Source: a virus. From it: a stretch of DNA of 22,541 nt. Positions 1,936 to 20,061 of the stretch are shown one piece after another (within the stretch, counting starts at the first letter, position 1; every line of letters begins with the position of its first letter). Made by a program: the position numbers and the translations under genes. The notes under the pieces were generated by a model. That model ran no database searches, was not told the DNA's origin, and was given only the letters and a program-made list of their open reading frames with translations. The DNA lies in the IMG/VR virus record IMGVR_UViG_3300042321_000120, positions 1 to 22,541 of that record, one strand, 5' to 3'.

Positions 1936-2081
1936 TGAAATACTTATCATCAATTTTACAAGTCGTAGGTGCAAGCGTATTAGTTGCAGGTGTCGCATCC
2001 TTCAATTCACTTTTAGGGGTAATATTAGGCGGTGCATTTTTAATTATTTTTGGTATTGCTTTAGAAATAAGAGGTAAATAA
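1935..2081 (+). CDS. Small membrane protein between terminase and portal
   Basis: A 48-residue ORF that shares a TAATG junction with both neighbours: its ATG overlaps the terL stop, and its TAA overlaps the portal ATG. It is almost entirely hydrophobic, with two predicted membrane segments (about residues 4-22 and 25-43) separated by SFNS, and ends in the basic tail EIRGK. The perfect fit between two packaging genes argues that it is translated. The function is not known. It might tether packaging or assembly to the membrane, or act in lysis, but nothing in the sequence decides this. Confidence 0.75.
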   Translation: MKYLSSILQVVGASVLVAGVASFNSLLGVILGGAFLIIFGIALEIRGK

Positions 2082-3253
2082 TGCTAGGCAGGCTCTTAAA
2101 AAGACAAATACAACCAGGCTTGGTTTATACCTCTCAAGGTTATGTTGACTCACTAGGTCGCGTTGGTAGATTTTTTGAGGGCAATTGGGCAGGGGCTTAT
2201 GTTGACCAAAATACAGCTCTTGGCATACCTGCTATTTATCGCGGTATATCTTTAATTGCAGATGCAATAGGCGCATTGGATCTTTGTGCATATCGTAATG
2301 ATAGAGAAGTAAAACCTAAACCAATAATTTTACAAAGACCAGTACCAACTGAGACACGCATGGAGACAATAGCTGCAATGGCAGCTGGTCTTGTTATGCA
2401 TGGTAATTACATTGCAGTATTAGGTGAACCTGGTGCTAATGGTTTGCCAGATCATATTTATCCTGTTGCACCTGATCGCGTGCAAGTAAGTAGAGACAAT
2501 GGCAGAATTATTTATCGCATTGATGAAAGAGTTTATGAAAAATCTGAGATCTTTCATATAAAGAATTTTACTATGCCAGGTGATTTAGTAGGTCGCGGAA
2601 TATTAGCAATAGCAAAACAATCATTAGGTAAAGAAATTGCAATCAATGAATATGCAAGTAGATACTTTGACGGCGGAGTAAATCCTACTGCAGTTATTAA
2701 ATCTGCAAATCCTGATCTTACAAGTGAGGAAGCTGATGCACTTAAAACTGCATGGATGGCTATGTACTCATCACGCAATAGATCACCTGTAGTAATGAAC
2801 GCATCTACAGACTTTGAAGTTTTAAGTAGCAACGCAGCGGAGTCACAATTAGTAGAGGCACAAACAGCTGGTCTTACTGAGGCCGCAAACATTATTGGTC
2901 TGCCTGGTTACTACTTAGGATCACCTAATGCCAGCCGCACTTATTCCAATGTTGAGCAGGAAAATTTACAGCTTGTTAAATGGTCAATCCAGCCGATTGC
3001 AGAAAGAATAGAGGCAGCATTTTCTGATTTGTTAGTCAGAGGACAAACTGCAAAATTTAAATATGAGTCATTATTAAAGACTGATACATCAAGTCGTTAT
3101 GCAGCTTATCAAACAGCATTAGCAAGCGGATTTTTAACTGTAGATGAAGTAAGAGATTTAGAAAATTTAGATCCTATGGATTATGAGGAAAGTGAACAAG
3201 ATGAGGAAATTGAAACTACCATAGATCAGGCAGAGGTAACTGAGTATGAATAA
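2081..3253 (+). CDS. Portal protein, HK97 family
   Basis: This 390-residue protein fits the HK97-type portal family in length, position between terminase and prohead protease, and sequence features. These include an N-terminal region with AIYRGISLIADAIG (residues 50-63) and a C-terminal stretch with YSNVEQENL followed by WSIQPIAERIEAAF. Portals form the dodecameric ring through which DNA enters and leaves the head and to which terminase and connector proteins bind. The C-terminal 25 residues are strongly acidic. The gene overlaps the protease start by 8 bp, typical of this operon. Confidence 0.92.
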   Translation: MLGRLLKRQIQPGLVYTSQGYVDSLGRVGRFFEGNWAGAYVDQNTALGIPAIYRGISLIADAIGALDLCAYRNDREVKPKPIILQRPVPTETRMETIAAMAAGLVMHGNYIAVLGEPGANGLPDHIYPVAPDRVQVSRDNGRIIYRIDERVYEKSEIFHIKNFTMPGDLVGRGILAIAKQSLGKEIAINEYASRYFDGGVNPTAVIKSANPDLTSEEADALKTAWMAMYSSRNRSPVVMNASTDFEVLSSNAAESQLVEAQTAGLTEAANIIGLPGYYLGSPNASRTYSNVEQENLQLVKWSIQPIAERIEAAFSDLLVRGQTAKFKYESLLKTDTSSRYAAYQTALASGFLTVDEVRDLENLDPMDYEESEQDEEIETTIDQAEVTEYE

Positions 3254-3803
3254 AGATAATGAAATAGAAAACAGACAATACCAAGTTGAGTTTGAGTTAA
3301 GACTTGCAGGTGGAGATGGTCGTACTATTTATGGCATGGCTGTGCCTTATAACAAAGAGCAGCGCATAAGTAGCACACTAACTGAGATATTTAGAAAAGG
3401 TGTTTTTGCGGATGTTATACGCGCACCTCACAGAGTAAAACTATTGCGTGGTCATGGTGAGAATAATGTTTTAGGTAGAGCCACTTTGTTAAAAGAGACA
3501 GAGGATGGTCTGTATGCAGAGTTTAGGATCTCAAAGACAAGAGAAGGTGATGAGGCTCTTGAGCTTGTAAAAGATGGCGCATTAGATCAGCTCTCTATCG
3601 GATTTATGCCTATTAAAAATCGTAAAAGGCCAGATGGAGTAATGGAAAGATTAAAGGCACATCTAGCTGAGGTATCACTTGTCACTTTTGGCGCTTATGG
3701 TGATATGGCTGCAGTTACAGGTGTTAGAGAAGGTCAACCATTATTAACCCCAAGACTAGATGAAGCTAGAAAAATTTTAAATGCCTTACAGCATAAAAAA
3801 TAA
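3246..3803 (+). CDS. Prohead (head maturation) protease, HK97 U35 family
   Basis: A 185-residue serine protease that removes scaffold segments from the capsid precursor. The catalytic positions expected for the family are visible: H70 in LLRGHGEN, S117 in QLSIGF, and the acidic E142 in HLAEVSLVTFGAY. The conserved early segment IYGMAVPYN is at residues 29-37. Its likely substrate is the N-terminal coiled-coil segment of the capsid protein encoded downstream. The 3' end overlaps the next gene by 23 bp. Lysine is encoded by AAA in 11 of 13 cases, typical of the left module. Confidence 0.93.
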   Translation: MNKDNEIENRQYQVEFELRLAGGDGRTIYGMAVPYNKEQRISSTLTEIFRKGVFADVIRAPHRVKLLRGHGENNVLGRATLLKETEDGLYAEFRISKTREGDEALELVKDGALDQLSIGFMPIKNRKRPDGVMERLKAHLAEVSLVTFGAYGDMAAVTGVREGQPLLTPRLDEARKILNALQHKK

Positions 3804-4482
3804 TCATCCTGATTGCGAAGGGTTCGCAGTAGTTAAAGACAGTAGCAATGAAGTTTTAGGCTGTCATAAAACACAAACACAAGCTGAGGATCAATTAACA
3901 GCTCTTAACATTGCAGAGTATGGCACTAGGGAATTGCCTGATAACTACAGACCAGCATCTAGTGATGATGTGCCTCAAGGTCGCAATTGTGGCAACTGTT
4001 ATTTTTATGAGGCAGGCTATTGTGATCTGTGGGATGCCAATGTGCAAAGTGATTATTATTGCAACAGGTGGGCAGCTATGAACCAAGAAAGACAAGAAAG
4101 TTACAGCCCTACAGCTGCAATGAAAGCTGAGGCACAAAGAGGTTTAGATTGGCGCAAAGAGTTTGGCAGAGGTGGCACTGAGATAGGTATTGCTAGAGCT
4201 AGAGATATTGTTAATGGAAAAAACTTACCCTTAGAAACAGTCAACCGCATGGTTTCTTTTTTTGCACGCCATGAAGTTGACAAAGAGGCAGAGGGTTTTA
4301 GTCCAGGTGAGGATGGCTATCCTTCCAATGGCAGGATTGCTTGGGCTTTGTGGGGTGGTGATGCTGGTAGATCTTGGGCAAACAAAATTGCAGACCAAGA
4401 AAGAGATTATGATGAGGATGATGACAAACCTAGATACAACACAGCCTTGTCTATGTTACAAAATTTAAAAAAACAGATATAA
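3781..4482 (+). CDS. Head-operon protein with HiPIP-like cysteine cluster
   Basis: A 233-residue protein between the protease and capsid genes, with three visible parts. Residues 1-48 form a small module containing DCEGFAVVKD and GCHKT. Residues 70-97 hold four cysteines (C70, C73, C81, C94) in the spacing C-x2-C-x7-C-x12-C-x2-W, which resembles a high-potential iron-sulphur protein. Residues 115-203 form a domain with GLDWRKEFGRGG, ARHEVDKEAEGF and RIAWALWGGDAG, a pattern I associate with phage head-region proteins of unknown role. The C-terminus is acidic (DEDDD). It overlaps the protease by 23 bp and is probably translationally coupled. A zinc site instead of an Fe-S cluster is possible. 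Confidence 0.75.
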   Translation: MPYSIKNNHPDCEGFAVVKDSSNEVLGCHKTQTQAEDQLTALNIAEYGTRELPDNYRPASSDDVPQGRNCGNCYFYEAGYCDLWDANVQSDYYCNRWAAMNQERQESYSPTAAMKAEAQRGLDWRKEFGRGGTEIGIARARDIVNGKNLPLETVNRMVSFFARHEVDKEAEGFSPGEDGYPSNGRIAWALWGGDAGRSWANKIADQERDYDEDDDKPRYNTALSMLQNLKKQI

Positions 4483-4564: not shown

Positions 4565-5923
4565 ATGTCTAATGCTTTTTTAGCTTCTCTGCGTGAGAAG
4601 CGTGAGTCAAAGACTGCTCTTATTCAATCCACTTTAGATCGTGCAGCTGAGGAAGCACGCGATCTATCAGAGGTAGAACTTGCCAATGTAGAGGCACTAA
4701 ACCTTGAAATTAAAAAGTTGGATGAAAGAATTGAGCAGATGTCTGACATTGAAATCAGAAACCAAAAGGCAGCTGAGTTAGCTGCAAAGGTAGATGTAAA
4801 TGTAGATAACAAAAAGGAAGTTCGCGCTGGTGGCTTTAGTGTTACAAAAGAGGAACTAACCTATTCAGAGAGATCAGATAATGATTTCTTAACTGATGCG
4901 CTTAAGGCACAATTTAAAACTGATGGTGATGCGCAAGAGCGTATTCAACGCCATCAAAGAGAAATGGCAATTGAGAAGCGTGCAGTTAGCACATCATCAT
5001 TTGCAGGCCTAGTTGTTCCCCAGTATTTAGTCGATCTTTACGCCCCGTTAGCACGCCAGGGAAGACCCTTTGCAGATGCAGCACGCAAACACAATCTGCC
5101 TGCTCAAGGCATGTCGGTCGTAATATCAAAAATAAATACTGGTACTACAACAGCGTATCAAACATCTCAAAATACAGCTGCAGTATCACAGGATATGGCA
5201 GATACAACCCTTACTGTAAATGTAAATACAATTGCAGGACAACAATCAGTATCTAAGCAAGCATTACTACGCGGATACAACATTGAGGGAATTGTTTTAG
5301 GTGATTTAATTCGTGATTATCACACAAAACTAGATAACTCATTACTAAATGGATCAGGATCTAATGGTCAGCCATTAGGACTTGTGAATATGACAACTGG
5401 AATACTTATAACCTACACAGCTACAACTGGAACAGTTGCGGGTTTGTATCCGAAGGTCGCAGATGCGATACAGTCAATTCAAAGTAACATCTATACAAAT
5501 CCAAATGCAATTTTGATGCACCCAAGGAGACTTGGTTTCTTGTTAGCAGCACTTGACAGTCAAAATCGCCCATTGGTTGTACCTACTGCTTACAATCCAG
5601 TTAATGCAATCGGCACAGGTAACGGCACACCTACTTATGGTAACTCAGGTTATTCAATGTTAGGTTTGCCAATTATTACTGATGCTAATATTGCAACGGA
5701 TAAGGGTACATCAACAAATCAAGATACAATCTTTGTTGTAGATCTAAATGAGTGTCATCTATGGGAAGAGGCAGCAGCCCCTACTTATGTGACATTTGAA
5801 GAGCCTAACGGAAAGGTTGCAATCAATATTGTTTTGTTTGGTATGTCAGCCTTCACCGCAGATCGCTATGGAAAAGCTATTGCACAAATAAATGGCACTG
5901 GCTTGGCCTCACCTAGCTTCTAG
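4565..5923 (+). CDS. Major capsid protein, HK97 fold
   Basis: A 452-residue capsid precursor. Residues about 3-75 are a highly charged coiled coil, the expected delta (scaffold) domain. A linker follows, and the mature shell protein probably begins somewhere between residues 105 and 145. The core contains VVPQYLVDLYAPLARQG (150-166) and a long beta-rich C-terminal half including NAILMHPRRLGFLLA, characteristic of HK97-type subunits. The exact cleavage site cannot be fixed by eye. The gene has its own good ribosome binding site (TAGGAG) after an 82-bp spacer, and a strong hairpin follows it, fitting a highly expressed gene. Confidence 0.95.
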   Translation: MSNAFLASLREKRESKTALIQSTLDRAAEEARDLSEVELANVEALNLEIKKLDERIEQMSDIEIRNQKAAELAAKVDVNVDNKKEVRAGGFSVTKEELTYSERSDNDFLTDALKAQFKTDGDAQERIQRHQREMAIEKRAVSTSSFAGLVVPQYLVDLYAPLARQGRPFADAARKHNLPAQGMSVVISKINTGTTTAYQTSQNTAAVSQDMADTTLTVNVNTIAGQQSVSKQALLRGYNIEGIVLGDLIRDYHTKLDNSLLNGSGSNGQPLGLVNMTTGILITYTATTGTVAGLYPKVADAIQSIQSNIYTNPNAILMHPRRLGFLLAALDSQNRPLVVPTAYNPVNAIGTGNGTPTYGNSGYSMLGLPIITDANIATDKGTSTNQDTIFVVDLNECHLWEEAAAPTYVTFEEPNGKVAINIVLFGMSAFTADRYGKAIAQINGTGLASPSF

Positions 5924-15676: not shown

Positions 15677-15922
15677 ATGGTTAAGGTTTACACATTACCA
15701 GATTGTGTGCAATGTGAGATGACTAAGAAGTTATTAGATAGAAGTAAAGTAAAGTATGAAGTAGTAGATATAAGCCAAGACCAAACTGCTAAAGAAACTG
15801 TAGAAGCATTAGGATATAAGCAGGCACCCGTAGTTGTTTATGATAAGTTCCACTGGTCAGGATTTAGACCAGATAAGATTAACGCATTACATTTGGCACT
15901 ACTAGAAAAAGGCGTAGCATAA
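15677..15922 (+). CDS. nrdH: NrdH-type glutaredoxin
   Basis: An 81-residue thioredoxin-fold protein. The active site CVQC is at residues 10-13, the conserved cis-proline is P51 in QAPVVVYD, and WSGFRP at 60-65 is the hallmark that separates NrdH-redoxins from ordinary glutaredoxins. NrdH supplies electrons to class Ib ribonucleotide reductase and is typical of Actinobacteria. No reductase gene is in the window, so it may serve the host enzyme or one encoded elsewhere on the phage. It sits inside the lysis cassette, which is an odd place. AAGGGGG is its ribosome binding site. Confidence 0.92.
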   Translation: MVKVYTLPDCVQCEMTKKLLDRSKVKYEVVDISQDQTAKETVEALGYKQAPVVVYDKFHWSGFRPDKINALHLALLEKGVA

Positions 15923-17804: not shown

Positions 17805-18374
17805 TTGACCGCGATAATTGGTATCCAAGGTAAAGGCTGGGCTGTTATAGCCTCAGATACAATGACTACCTATACTGACAAACCTTACATTGCTAAAGGC
17901 TATGACAAAATAGTTAAGGTTAATGAATATCTAATAGCTGTAGCAGGTGATGCCACTGCTGGAGATATCTTAAATAACTTATGGCAACCACCAAAGGTAG
18001 TTAAAACTCAAGAGCCTGATCGCTTCTTAATGATTAGAGTTCTACCATCTATCAAACAAACATTAACTGATGCAGGTTATGACCCTGCGCCTAAGAATAA
18101 AAATGATGATGACTCTGGGTGGGATGCTTTAATTTGTTTTAATGGAAAGATATATCAGATCAGTGATGACTATGGGTATATGAGAGATGATAGAAACTTA
18201 TATGGCATAGGCTCAGGTGGATCAATTGCTCTTGGTGCATTAGCTGCAATGGAGAGTGAGATTAGAACCCACGCTAAAGCAGCGAGTGCTGCAAAGAAAG
18301 CAATCAATATTGCCATACAGTACAACGTATGGTGTGGTGGAGTACCAACCATCAAGACTCAGTTCACAAAGTAA
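17805..18374 (+). CDS. Proteasome/HslV-like threonine peptidase
   Basis: A 189-residue Ntn-hydrolase resembling HslV and proteasome beta subunits. The start is TTG at 17805, placed by AGGAG five bases before it. After Met removal the protein begins with Thr1 (TAIIGI), and then D17 in AVIASD, the canonical spacing. The lysine expected at position 33 is K34 (or K30), allowing a one-residue insertion. GIGSGGSIALGALAA (residues 134-148) matches the conserved GSG segment. No propeptide is present, as in HslV. The predicted role is a self-compartmentalising protease. No ATPase partner (HslU or Mpa) is encoded nearby, so it might use host unfoldases. Confidence 0.82.
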   Translation: MTAIIGIQGKGWAVIASDTMTTYTDKPYIAKGYDKIVKVNEYLIAVAGDATAGDILNNLWQPPKVVKTQEPDRFLMIRVLPSIKQTLTDAGYDPAPKNKNDDDSGWDALICFNGKIYQISDDYGYMRDDRNLYGIGSGGSIALGALAAMESEIRTHAKAASAAKKAINIAIQYNVWCGGVPTIKTQFTK

Positions 18375-18379
18375 GGAAG

Positions 18380-18475
18380 ATGATGAAAGAAATATATTGG
18401 CAATTACAGTTTTATCTATTAGACTTAGAGATGTACAGATTTATTTTAGAATTTTTTATTAAGTGGGGATTATAG
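18380..18475 (+). CDS. Tiny ORF coupled to the exonuclease gene
   Basis: A 31-residue ORF beginning MMKEIYWQLQFYLLDLEMYR and ending FFIKWGL. It is dominated by aromatic and leucine residues, so it may insert in a membrane or bind another protein. AAGGAAG precedes the ATG, and its TAG stop overlaps the next gene's GTG start (TAGTG). That junction is the main reason to call it. It may act chiefly as a coupling leader. I do not recognise it. Confidence 0.5.
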   Translation: MMKEIYWQLQFYLLDLEMYRFILEFFIKWGL

Positions 18476-19428
18476 TGAGCGATCCAAAGCAGTTATTGAT
18501 TGATGTTCTACGAGCTAAAGATGCTGGTAGGGCTAGATCTAAACAGACACAGGTAGGTCCATCAGAGTTGGGTGGTTGCCGTAGAAAAGTTTGGTATCGT
18601 CTTAACGATCAACCTGAAACTAATGAGAACGAATTAAAGTTAGCAGCGATTATGGGTACTGCTATCCACGCTACTATTGAAGAAGCAATACGCAGTATAG
18701 ATCCAAAGGGTGAGAAGTATTGGGTTGAAACTGCAGTTGAGTATTCTGGGATGAAAGCGCATATAGATCTATTCATTCCAGAGACTGGCGATGTTATTGA
18801 TTGGAAGACTGTTAAGAAACAAAACCTTTCTTACTTTCCATCTAGTCAACAACGTTGGCAGGTTCAGGTCTATGGCTATCTGTTAGACAAGTCTGGGAAG
18901 GGGAAGCCTAGAACTGTCAATCTGGTAGCCATAGCCAGAGATGGCGATGAGAGAGATGTAGTTGTCCACTCTGAAGCATATGATCCTACGATTGCTGAAG
19001 AGGCTCTTAACTGGTTAGCTGCAGTTAAAGAGTCAGAGATAGCACCAGATCCTGAGAGAGATCAAAACTATTGCAAATCTTATTGCAAGTACTTTGATGC
19101 AACAGGAGAGATCGGATGTTCTGGCTTAAAAAAAGAACGTATCAAGGATGAGCTGCCTGTTATAGAAGACAGTAGCGTTGATCATTCAGCCTTGATGTAC
19201 TTGCAACTTGATCAACAGATAAAAGAGTTGACCGAAAAACGAGAGTCATTACGAACTGCGTTTGACGGTATAACTGGAGAGACTGCTAGTGGTGTACAGA
19301 TTACCTGGACAACTGTTAATGGTAGGTCTACAGTTAACACAGCCGAAGTAGAAAAACTACTAGGCTTTGTACCAAAGGTGGAGGGACAACCTTTCGCTAG
19401 ATTAAATATAAAAACTGGAGGAAAATAA
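18475..19428 (+). CDS. RecB/Cas4-like Fe-S exonuclease
   Basis: A 317-residue PD-(D/E)xK nuclease. Visible motifs are H65 in GTAIHATIEE, D98 in AHIDLF, D109 and K111 in VIDWKT, and QVQVYGYLL at 129-137 (the QxxxY helix). C35 together with C200, C204 and C215 matches the four-cysteine iron-sulphur arrangement of Cas4, AddB and related nucleases. The start is GTG at 18475, preceded by GTGGGG; an in-frame GTG at 18463 is less likely. It probably trims DNA ends for recombination or replication. The C-terminal 90 residues have a helix (LDQQIKELTEKRESLRTAF) and a beta domain. Confidence 0.87.
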   Translation: MSDPKQLLIDVLRAKDAGRARSKQTQVGPSELGGCRRKVWYRLNDQPETNENELKLAAIMGTAIHATIEEAIRSIDPKGEKYWVETAVEYSGMKAHIDLFIPETGDVIDWKTVKKQNLSYFPSSQQRWQVQVYGYLLDKSGKGKPRTVNLVAIARDGDERDVVVHSEAYDPTIAEEALNWLAAVKESEIAPDPERDQNYCKSYCKYFDATGEIGCSGLKKERIKDELPVIEDSSVDHSALMYLQLDQQIKELTEKRESLRTAFDGITGETASGVQITWTTVNGRSTVNTAEVEKLLGFVPKVEGQPFARLNIKTGGK

Positions 19429-19803: not shown

Positions 19804-20061
19804 ATGCGGGGGCCTCGTGAGTTTGAGAACCCCTCTTGTGCAGAGATATCAATGGATATGTTCTTTCCTGAAAGAGGAGAAGACTTATCCACAATAAGAC
19901 AGATTAGAAATGTCTGCAAGTTATGTCCCCACCAGCAAGAATGTGCAGAGTGGGGCATACAAAAAGAAAGATACGGAGTATGGGGCGGTTTGTCTGAGAC
20001 AGATCGTAGAGTAATCCGTAAACAAAGAAACATTATCCTAAGAGAAGAAGAAATTGCTTAA
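19804..20061 (+). CDS. WhiB-family Fe-S transcription regulator
   Basis: An 85-residue WhiB-like protein. It has the four cluster-binding cysteines C12, C38, C41 and C47 in the C-x25-C-x2-C-x5-C pattern, the turn GVWGG (58-62), and a basic C-terminal helix (TDRRVIRKQR). WhiB proteins are found only in Actinobacteria and their phages, and bind the primary sigma factor through a 4Fe-4S cluster. The phage copy may redirect host transcription. The ATG at 19804 lies three bases after the previous stop with no obvious ribosome binding site, but C12 needs this start. It overlaps the helicase gene by 8 bp. Confidence 0.93.
   Translation: MRGPREFENPSCAEISMDMFFPERGEDLSTIRQIRNVCKLCPHQQECAEWGIQKERYGVWGGLSETDRRVIRKQRNIILREEEIA

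Follow-up and report, generated by a model that had tools for sequence, protein, structure and literature searches.

The window, the whole stretch of DNA analysed here, is a 22.5-kb virus record (IMGVR_UViG_3300042321_000120, positions 1 to 22,541) in which the head genes follow the order portal, S78 protease, the open reading frame (ORF) at 3781–4482 and capsid. This ORF, which shares 23 bases with the protease gene, encodes a 233-aa protein and is a real gene, judging from the conserved MPYSI N-terminus with which dozens of relatives also begin. The features considered are as follows.

2081–3253, plus strand: portal protein
3246–3803, plus strand: prohead serine protease (Pfam Peptidase_S78, E=5e-20)
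3750–3800, plus strand: C-terminal tail of the protease, PRLDEARKILNALQHKK, resembling PRYNTALSMLQNLKKQI
3781–4482, plus strand: accessory head-operon protein, 233 aa, with architecture A-B-C and a C-terminal tail
3781–3924, plus strand: module A, residues 1–48, a predicted beta-beta-beta-alpha mini-domain (pLDDT ~82)
3925–4095, plus strand: module B, residues 49–105, a predicted HiPIP-fold four-cysteine module (from profile searches and the predicted fold of a relative)
3988–3999, plus strand: C70-x2-C73, predicted cluster ligands 1 and 2, invariant in A5
4021–4023, plus strand: C81, predicted ligand 3
4060–4071, plus strand: C94-x2-W97, predicted ligand 4 and invariant Trp
4099–4398, plus strand: module C, residues 107–206, a helical domain (phrog_2859) widespread in phage head genes
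4429–4479, plus strand: C-terminal tail of the 233-aa protein, PRYNTALSMLQNLKKQI, a proposed procapsid-targeting signal
4565–5923, plus strand: major capsid protein, HK97-type (Pfam Phage_capsid, E=2e-18)

A four-cysteine module in a head-operon protein

The 233-aa protein begins MPYSIKNNHPD with module A, and no twin-arginine or hydrophobic leader can be read from its sequence. Single-sequence searches of Pfam, NCBIfam and the PDB returned no match, PADLOC likewise gave none, and the Pfam search recognised no enzymatic domain in what is a multi-domain, modular, head-associated protein. Module A corresponds to a portion of phrog_80, the head maturation protease profile, and weakly resembles DUF2188. 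The protein as a whole matched positions 1–171 of the 607 in phrog_80, that is, the N-terminal extension only, while the catalytic part of phrog_80 is absent from it and is the neighbouring gene in the window. A sequence-only reading of this DNA had counted the two flanking domains towards the novelty of the protein; both are real (residues 1–48 and ~107–206), but module C belongs to a widespread phage family (phrog_2859), and head proteases often carry module A (phrog_80).

Cysteines occur at positions 12, 28, 70, 73, 81 and 94 and a tryptophan at 97. The first two cysteines lie in the N-terminal part, and the others form exactly C70-x2-C73-x7-C81-x12-C94-x2-W97, so that the motif first described stands as written, between an S78 protease gene and an HK97-type capsid gene. 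Shuffling the residues of the protein 200,000 times produced the pattern C-x2-C-x5-20-C-x11-14-C-x2-W at a frequency of 4e-5, or at 1.9e-4 when W, Y or F was allowed at the last position, and the motif was absent from every other predicted protein of the window. Among 124 distinct B modules, two were cut by contig ends, and the 122 complete ones all kept the four cysteines and the tryptophan (122/122), a count somewhat biased by the inclusion of the cysteines in some search patterns. The spacing between the third and fourth cysteines was 12 in all phage B modules, and the loop between the second and third varied from 7 to 30 residues, the window's C-x7-C being shorter than in the high-potential iron-sulphur proteins (HiPIPs) examined. 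No partly degraded four-cysteine site was seen among the relatives found. Homologues without the four cysteines, named beforehand as evidence against a cluster site, did not appear as such: relatives keep all four or lose the whole module, as in contig L016 discussed below.

Resemblance of module B to HiPIPs

A profile of 70 modules searched against 177,635 PDB sequences placed HiPIPs at 14 of the 15 best matches (best E=0.00097), several of them variants of one Chromatium protein, with at least six different HiPIPs represented. The sole exception among those 15 was FlhC at rank 8, a protein that carries a zinc site. With a 30-member profile, ranks 1–9 in the PDB were all HiPIPs. Across 24,736 Pfam models, HIPIP was matched by 54 of the 70 members, more than any other model (best E=0.0002), followed by DUF7140 with 32/70, and a few zinc-ribbon models matched weakly. 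The gathering cut-off of HIPIP (PF01355), 22 bits, was not reached by the relative L181, which is among the best-scoring members at 21.9 bits, and the window protein gave no match to it; L181 likewise stayed below the 27-bit cut-off of DUF7140 (PF23601) with 21.7 bits.

Profile–profile comparison by hhalign of module B with seven HiPIP sequences (that of C. vinosum and six from plasmids) gave a probability of 94.9 and E=4.6e-8. The 30-member alignment scored 35.0 against HiPIP, a score reached by none of 200 shuffles with the cysteines fixed (12.0 ± 2.7, maximum 20.8) and by none of 200 with cysteines and tryptophan fixed (12.9 ± 3.2, maximum 25.9), indicating that the likeness goes beyond the Cys and Trp columns. 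The short-loop subset, to which the window's module belongs, scored 34.5 (shuffled 12.3 ± 3.1). In the reverse direction, a HiPIP HMM searched over 5,293 distinct phage ORFs retrieved only B modules or their five-cysteine relatives among its best 60 matches. A scan of genome contigs found matches only in three contigs of one Microbacteriaceae metagenome-assembled genome (MAG), which we read as phage-derived, and PF01355 run over that whole MAG matched three B modules and nothing else. Taken singly, the E-values of these reverse searches were weak (best 0.01), and it is the order of the matches that counts. An individual E-value near 0.01 decides little, given that the full-length profile also matched a bovine ultralong-CDR antibody at E=0.0054.

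Structure prediction against HiPIP, proposed as a check in the sequence-only reading, agreed with the profiles. AlphaFold without templates modelled the module of L181, a long-loop relative ~51% identical to the window's over the module, with a pLDDT of 95.1 and a pTM of 0.78; HiPIP structures belong to AlphaFold's training data. Foldseek with this model over 350,542 chains placed HiPIPs at ranks 1–13 (query TM 0.59–0.71, none with E<0.001), followed by 2y8n_B, a chain of a glycyl radical enzyme (GRE) entry that we take to be the small subunit of 4-hydroxyphenylacetate decarboxylase (HPAD). In VIA-align, 14 HiPIPs scored Z 6.0–7.6 over residues 1–61, the whole module, and the next row 4.0; a Z below 8 is not decisive alone, and the evidence lies in the clean gap between HiPIPs and the rest, the next structural matches being the HPAD small subunit (2y8n_B) and MasB (9o8u_B). 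A full-length AlphaFold model of the window protein left the B region unresolved (pLDDT ~50), with no useful Foldseek match. A structure search among viral models pointed to XkdF-like, prohead-protease and portal proteins. Taken from profiles and from the model of a relative, module B very probably has the HiPIP fold; a closeness first suggested by cysteine spacing is thus backed by profile searches, a shuffle-controlled profile–profile comparison and a high-confidence predicted fold.

HiPIPs are known as exported electron carriers, and glycyl radical enzymes make use of their fold as well. Module B has in common with PF01355 the four cysteines, identically ordered and almost identically spaced, a CxNCxF/Y motif, an aromatic residue after the fourth cysteine and the predicted fold. 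By contrast, its C3–C4 spacing is 12 rather than the 13 of the HiPIPs examined and its C2–C3 loop is very variable, and whereas HiPIPs are free periplasmic carriers, the phage version is a module within head proteins, one of a shuffled set. Since it lacks a Tat or export signal and stays below the Pfam cut-off, we name it a HiPIP-fold module and not a classical HiPIP. The GRE accessory subunits (HPAD gamma, BSS beta/gamma and MASS beta/gamma) likewise have the fold as a small accessory domain with no part in respiration or photosynthesis; they differ in being subunits of anaerobic enzymes, and their likeness to the phage module is structural.

A mobile module, an optional slot and a protease-like tail

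Distinct ORFs carried module B in the architectures A-B-C (29), A-B-D-C (17), A-B-C-S78 (51), A-B-C-D-S78 (14) and portal-B-C-D (3), where module D is DUF5824, and A-C without B also occurs. As order and content vary among relatives, B appears to be an independent unit. In the Pontimonas phage phiPsal1, an isolate with a named host, A-B-C-S78 is the annotated prohead protease (AUV61415.1; BFVD A0A2K9VGN9, 484 aa, the two being assigned to each other by that length). There, A, B and a diverged C form one N-terminal extension, the model of its B reaching TM 0.98 to the L181 module model, but the modules are fused to the protease, whereas in the window they constitute a separate gene downstream of it. 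The portal proteins of L027, L028 and L041 bear B-C-DUF5824 as a C-terminal extension. Another kind of B-like module, CSNCAFYEGPRACEIVAGDIDPNAICKFW, occupies the same setting before S78 in L018–L020, with a similar one in L194, whose ORF from 3765 reads A-B-D-C-B', two different HiPIP-like modules in one protein.

A five-cysteine module, CxNC...GWC....FxC.....CxxW, related to module B by profile, either ends S78 proteases or stands alone as a protein encoded close to the head genes (L077, 3001–4365; L253–L332; L085, 2015–2749; DSL-LC01). Its comparison with HiPIP was weak (probability 51 over 16 columns), and we gave it no weight as evidence. In the Actinomycetia phage DSL-LC01 it is the protein annotated 'High potential iron-sulfur protein' (WJZ48512.1), which like module B has CxNC...C...C..W and adjoins a module-C head protein, but has five cysteines and a long loop, the HiPIP likeness of the five-cysteine type being confined to 16 columns around CxNC. 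A HiPIP-like label has already been given to a few phage proteins by automatic annotation; the paper on DSL-LC01 mentions neither iron nor this annotation in its main text, and our literature search found no paper joining HiPIP with phage heads. Module C also occurs in one chain with protease and capsid in Roseobacter and Synechococcus phages (L082, 3028–5952; L084, 2965–5475).

The closest comparison for the window is L016, whose portal and protease are 99.2% and 99.5% identical to the window's and whose corresponding gene keeps A, C and the tail and lacks B, the missing stretch being essentially 3925–4095. B therefore fills an optional slot between A and C and is apparently not needed for head building itself, provided that the phage behind this metagenomic contig is viable, as we assume. 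The role of assembly factor, one of the functions first proposed for the protein, is weakened by this natural deletion as far as an essential role is concerned, and in that form we dropped it.

The C-terminal tails of the 233-aa protein and the protease have in common the motif A-x2-(I/M/L)L-x2-(L/I). Over nine non-redundant pairs, mean tail similarity was 23.2, compared with 13.1 ± 1.2 for shuffled tails (maximum 17.7 of 2000), 11.4 for portals and 13.3 for capsid proteins, and for the window's own tail the protease ranked first of 26, narrowly (21 vs 20). The motif, written after inspection of these tails, ended 55 of 72 A-B-C-type ORFs, 59 of 70 stand-alone S78 ORFs and 2 of 3139 others, in ORFs that are partly redundant; related sequences are not independent, so these statistics are inflated. 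The pattern suggests that the separated A-B-C part kept its access to the procapsid through a protease-like tail.

Possible roles within the head

With moderate confidence we propose the 233-aa protein to be procapsid cargo, an accessory protein inside the head of an actinobacterial phage, with a HiPIP-fold middle module and a predicted [4Fe-4S] cluster. Module B would bind one such cluster through C70, C73, C81 and C94, shielded by W97 and neighbouring aromatics. The tail in common with the protease would take the protein into the procapsid; in other phages the modules are covalently joined to the N-terminal side of the protease, or ride on the portal. Such co-assembly is, from the fusions and the tail, reasonably likely. 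Inside the head, the Fe-S domain may stabilise or control conformation, as HiPIP-fold subunits do in glycyl radical enzymes, or may be cargo let out on ejection; an accessory function of this kind is the role we would tentatively name, by analogy. Known HiPIP-fold proteins bind [4Fe-4S], and for the GRE subunits the roles given are help with solubility or, as is thought, control of conformation (PMC12358834). In T4, internal proteins are dispensable, a targeting sequence takes some of them into the prohead, and one, IPI, is injected (PMC9958956). There are also multidomain effectors borne by phages as portal fusions (PMC5512222). These three precedents are why we favour an Fe-S accessory head protein. 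The T4 internal proteins resemble the present case in being non-essential and in entering the prohead by means of a short signal at one terminus, for which the tail is proposed here, and differ in that the signal is N-terminal, reported in IPII and IPIII and not in other core proteins, and in lacking Fe-S (PMC9958956). An Fe-S cluster in a phage structural protein, here predicted, has a parallel in the lambda gpL and R4C hub tail-tip proteins; these belong to the tail and not the head, are reported essential for tail assembly, and have no reported relation to HiPIP (PMC10276861).

As for the group bound, we consider [4Fe-4S] probable rather than zinc. That the fold derives from HiPIP but holds structural zinc, the module being only a small rigid protein–protein docking domain, would suit a cytoplasmic phage protein without an export signal, zinc being common in phage proteins, and would accord with the weak matches to DUF7140 (32/70) and a few zinc-ribbon models and with FlhC as an intruder among the best PDB matches. 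Yet zinc ribbons have a second CxxC knuckle that is missing from the C-x2-C ... C-x12-C spacing, the HiPIP similarity extends past the Cys columns, and the proteins matched by structure, HiPIPs and the GRE accessory subunits that have their fold, bind [4Fe-4S] (PMC12358834), leaving the zinc alternative unlikely. A zinc-ribbon identity of module B was considered and dropped. That the cysteine pattern arose by chance in an unrelated domain fits the failure of the window sequence alone to match any Pfam family, but is strongly disfavoured and was dropped, as no shuffle that held Cys and Trp in place scored as high as the real alignment, and reciprocal searches and the predicted fold agree.

For the function of the preferred Fe-S head protein, two more specific readings were weighed. 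The protein could be packaged in the mature head and pass into the host together with the DNA, where it would provide iron, as first suggested, or a redox or anti-defence activity; the tail in common with the protease, the optional slot seen in L016, the fusion to portals, as for polyvalent-protein domains (PMC5512222), and the non-essential, partly targeted T4 internal proteins with injected IPI (PMC9958956) are all compatible with such virion cargo. However, maturation can break down and expel what a procapsid contains, and the few iron atoms that one virion could bring would hardly matter as a supply, so that we hold it doubtful. Alternatively, the cluster could act as a redox or oxygen switch on the linked or neighbouring S78 protease in prohead maturation, given that covalent fusion to that protease is recurrent (51 A-B-C-S78 ORFs), a related five-Cys module sits at protease C-termini, and GRE HiPIP-fold subunits are thought to control conformation. 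The L016 protease, 99.5% identical, nonetheless does without the module, portals also carry it as a fusion, and its position relative to the protease is variable, making a switch quite improbable. The fullest version, in which phages of aquatic actinobacteria carry a [4Fe-4S] HiPIP-fold protein inside their heads, delivered by the tail that it shares with the maturation protease, and use it either as redox-active or iron-bearing cargo of the virion or to gate maturation by redox state, is offered as speculation.

If the fold assignment holds, the HiPIP fold, moving as a module among head proteases, portals and a protein of its own in the head operon, would have its use extended to virus assembly, and the four-Cys-invariant, loop-tolerant pattern would predict Fe-S chemistry inside the procapsid. 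The tail in common with the protease would be a candidate capsid-targeting signal for HK97-type phages.

Elsewhere in the window, a WhiB-family protein (19804–20061; Pfam Whib, PF02467, E=8e-16) is a second probable [4Fe-4S] protein. WhiB, the Pontimonas host of phiPsal1 and the Microbacteriaceae MAG matches together point to an actinobacterial host. A Cas4/PD-(D/E)XK-like nuclease (18463–19428) has a cysteine cluster at its C-terminus and is possibly another Fe-S protein, and a proteasome-subunit-like Ntn hydrolase with a TTG start lies at 17805–18374 (Pfam Proteasome, E=1e-7, residues 2–56 alone matched). The structural gene block is closed by a glutaredoxin at 15677–15922 (E=1e-14).
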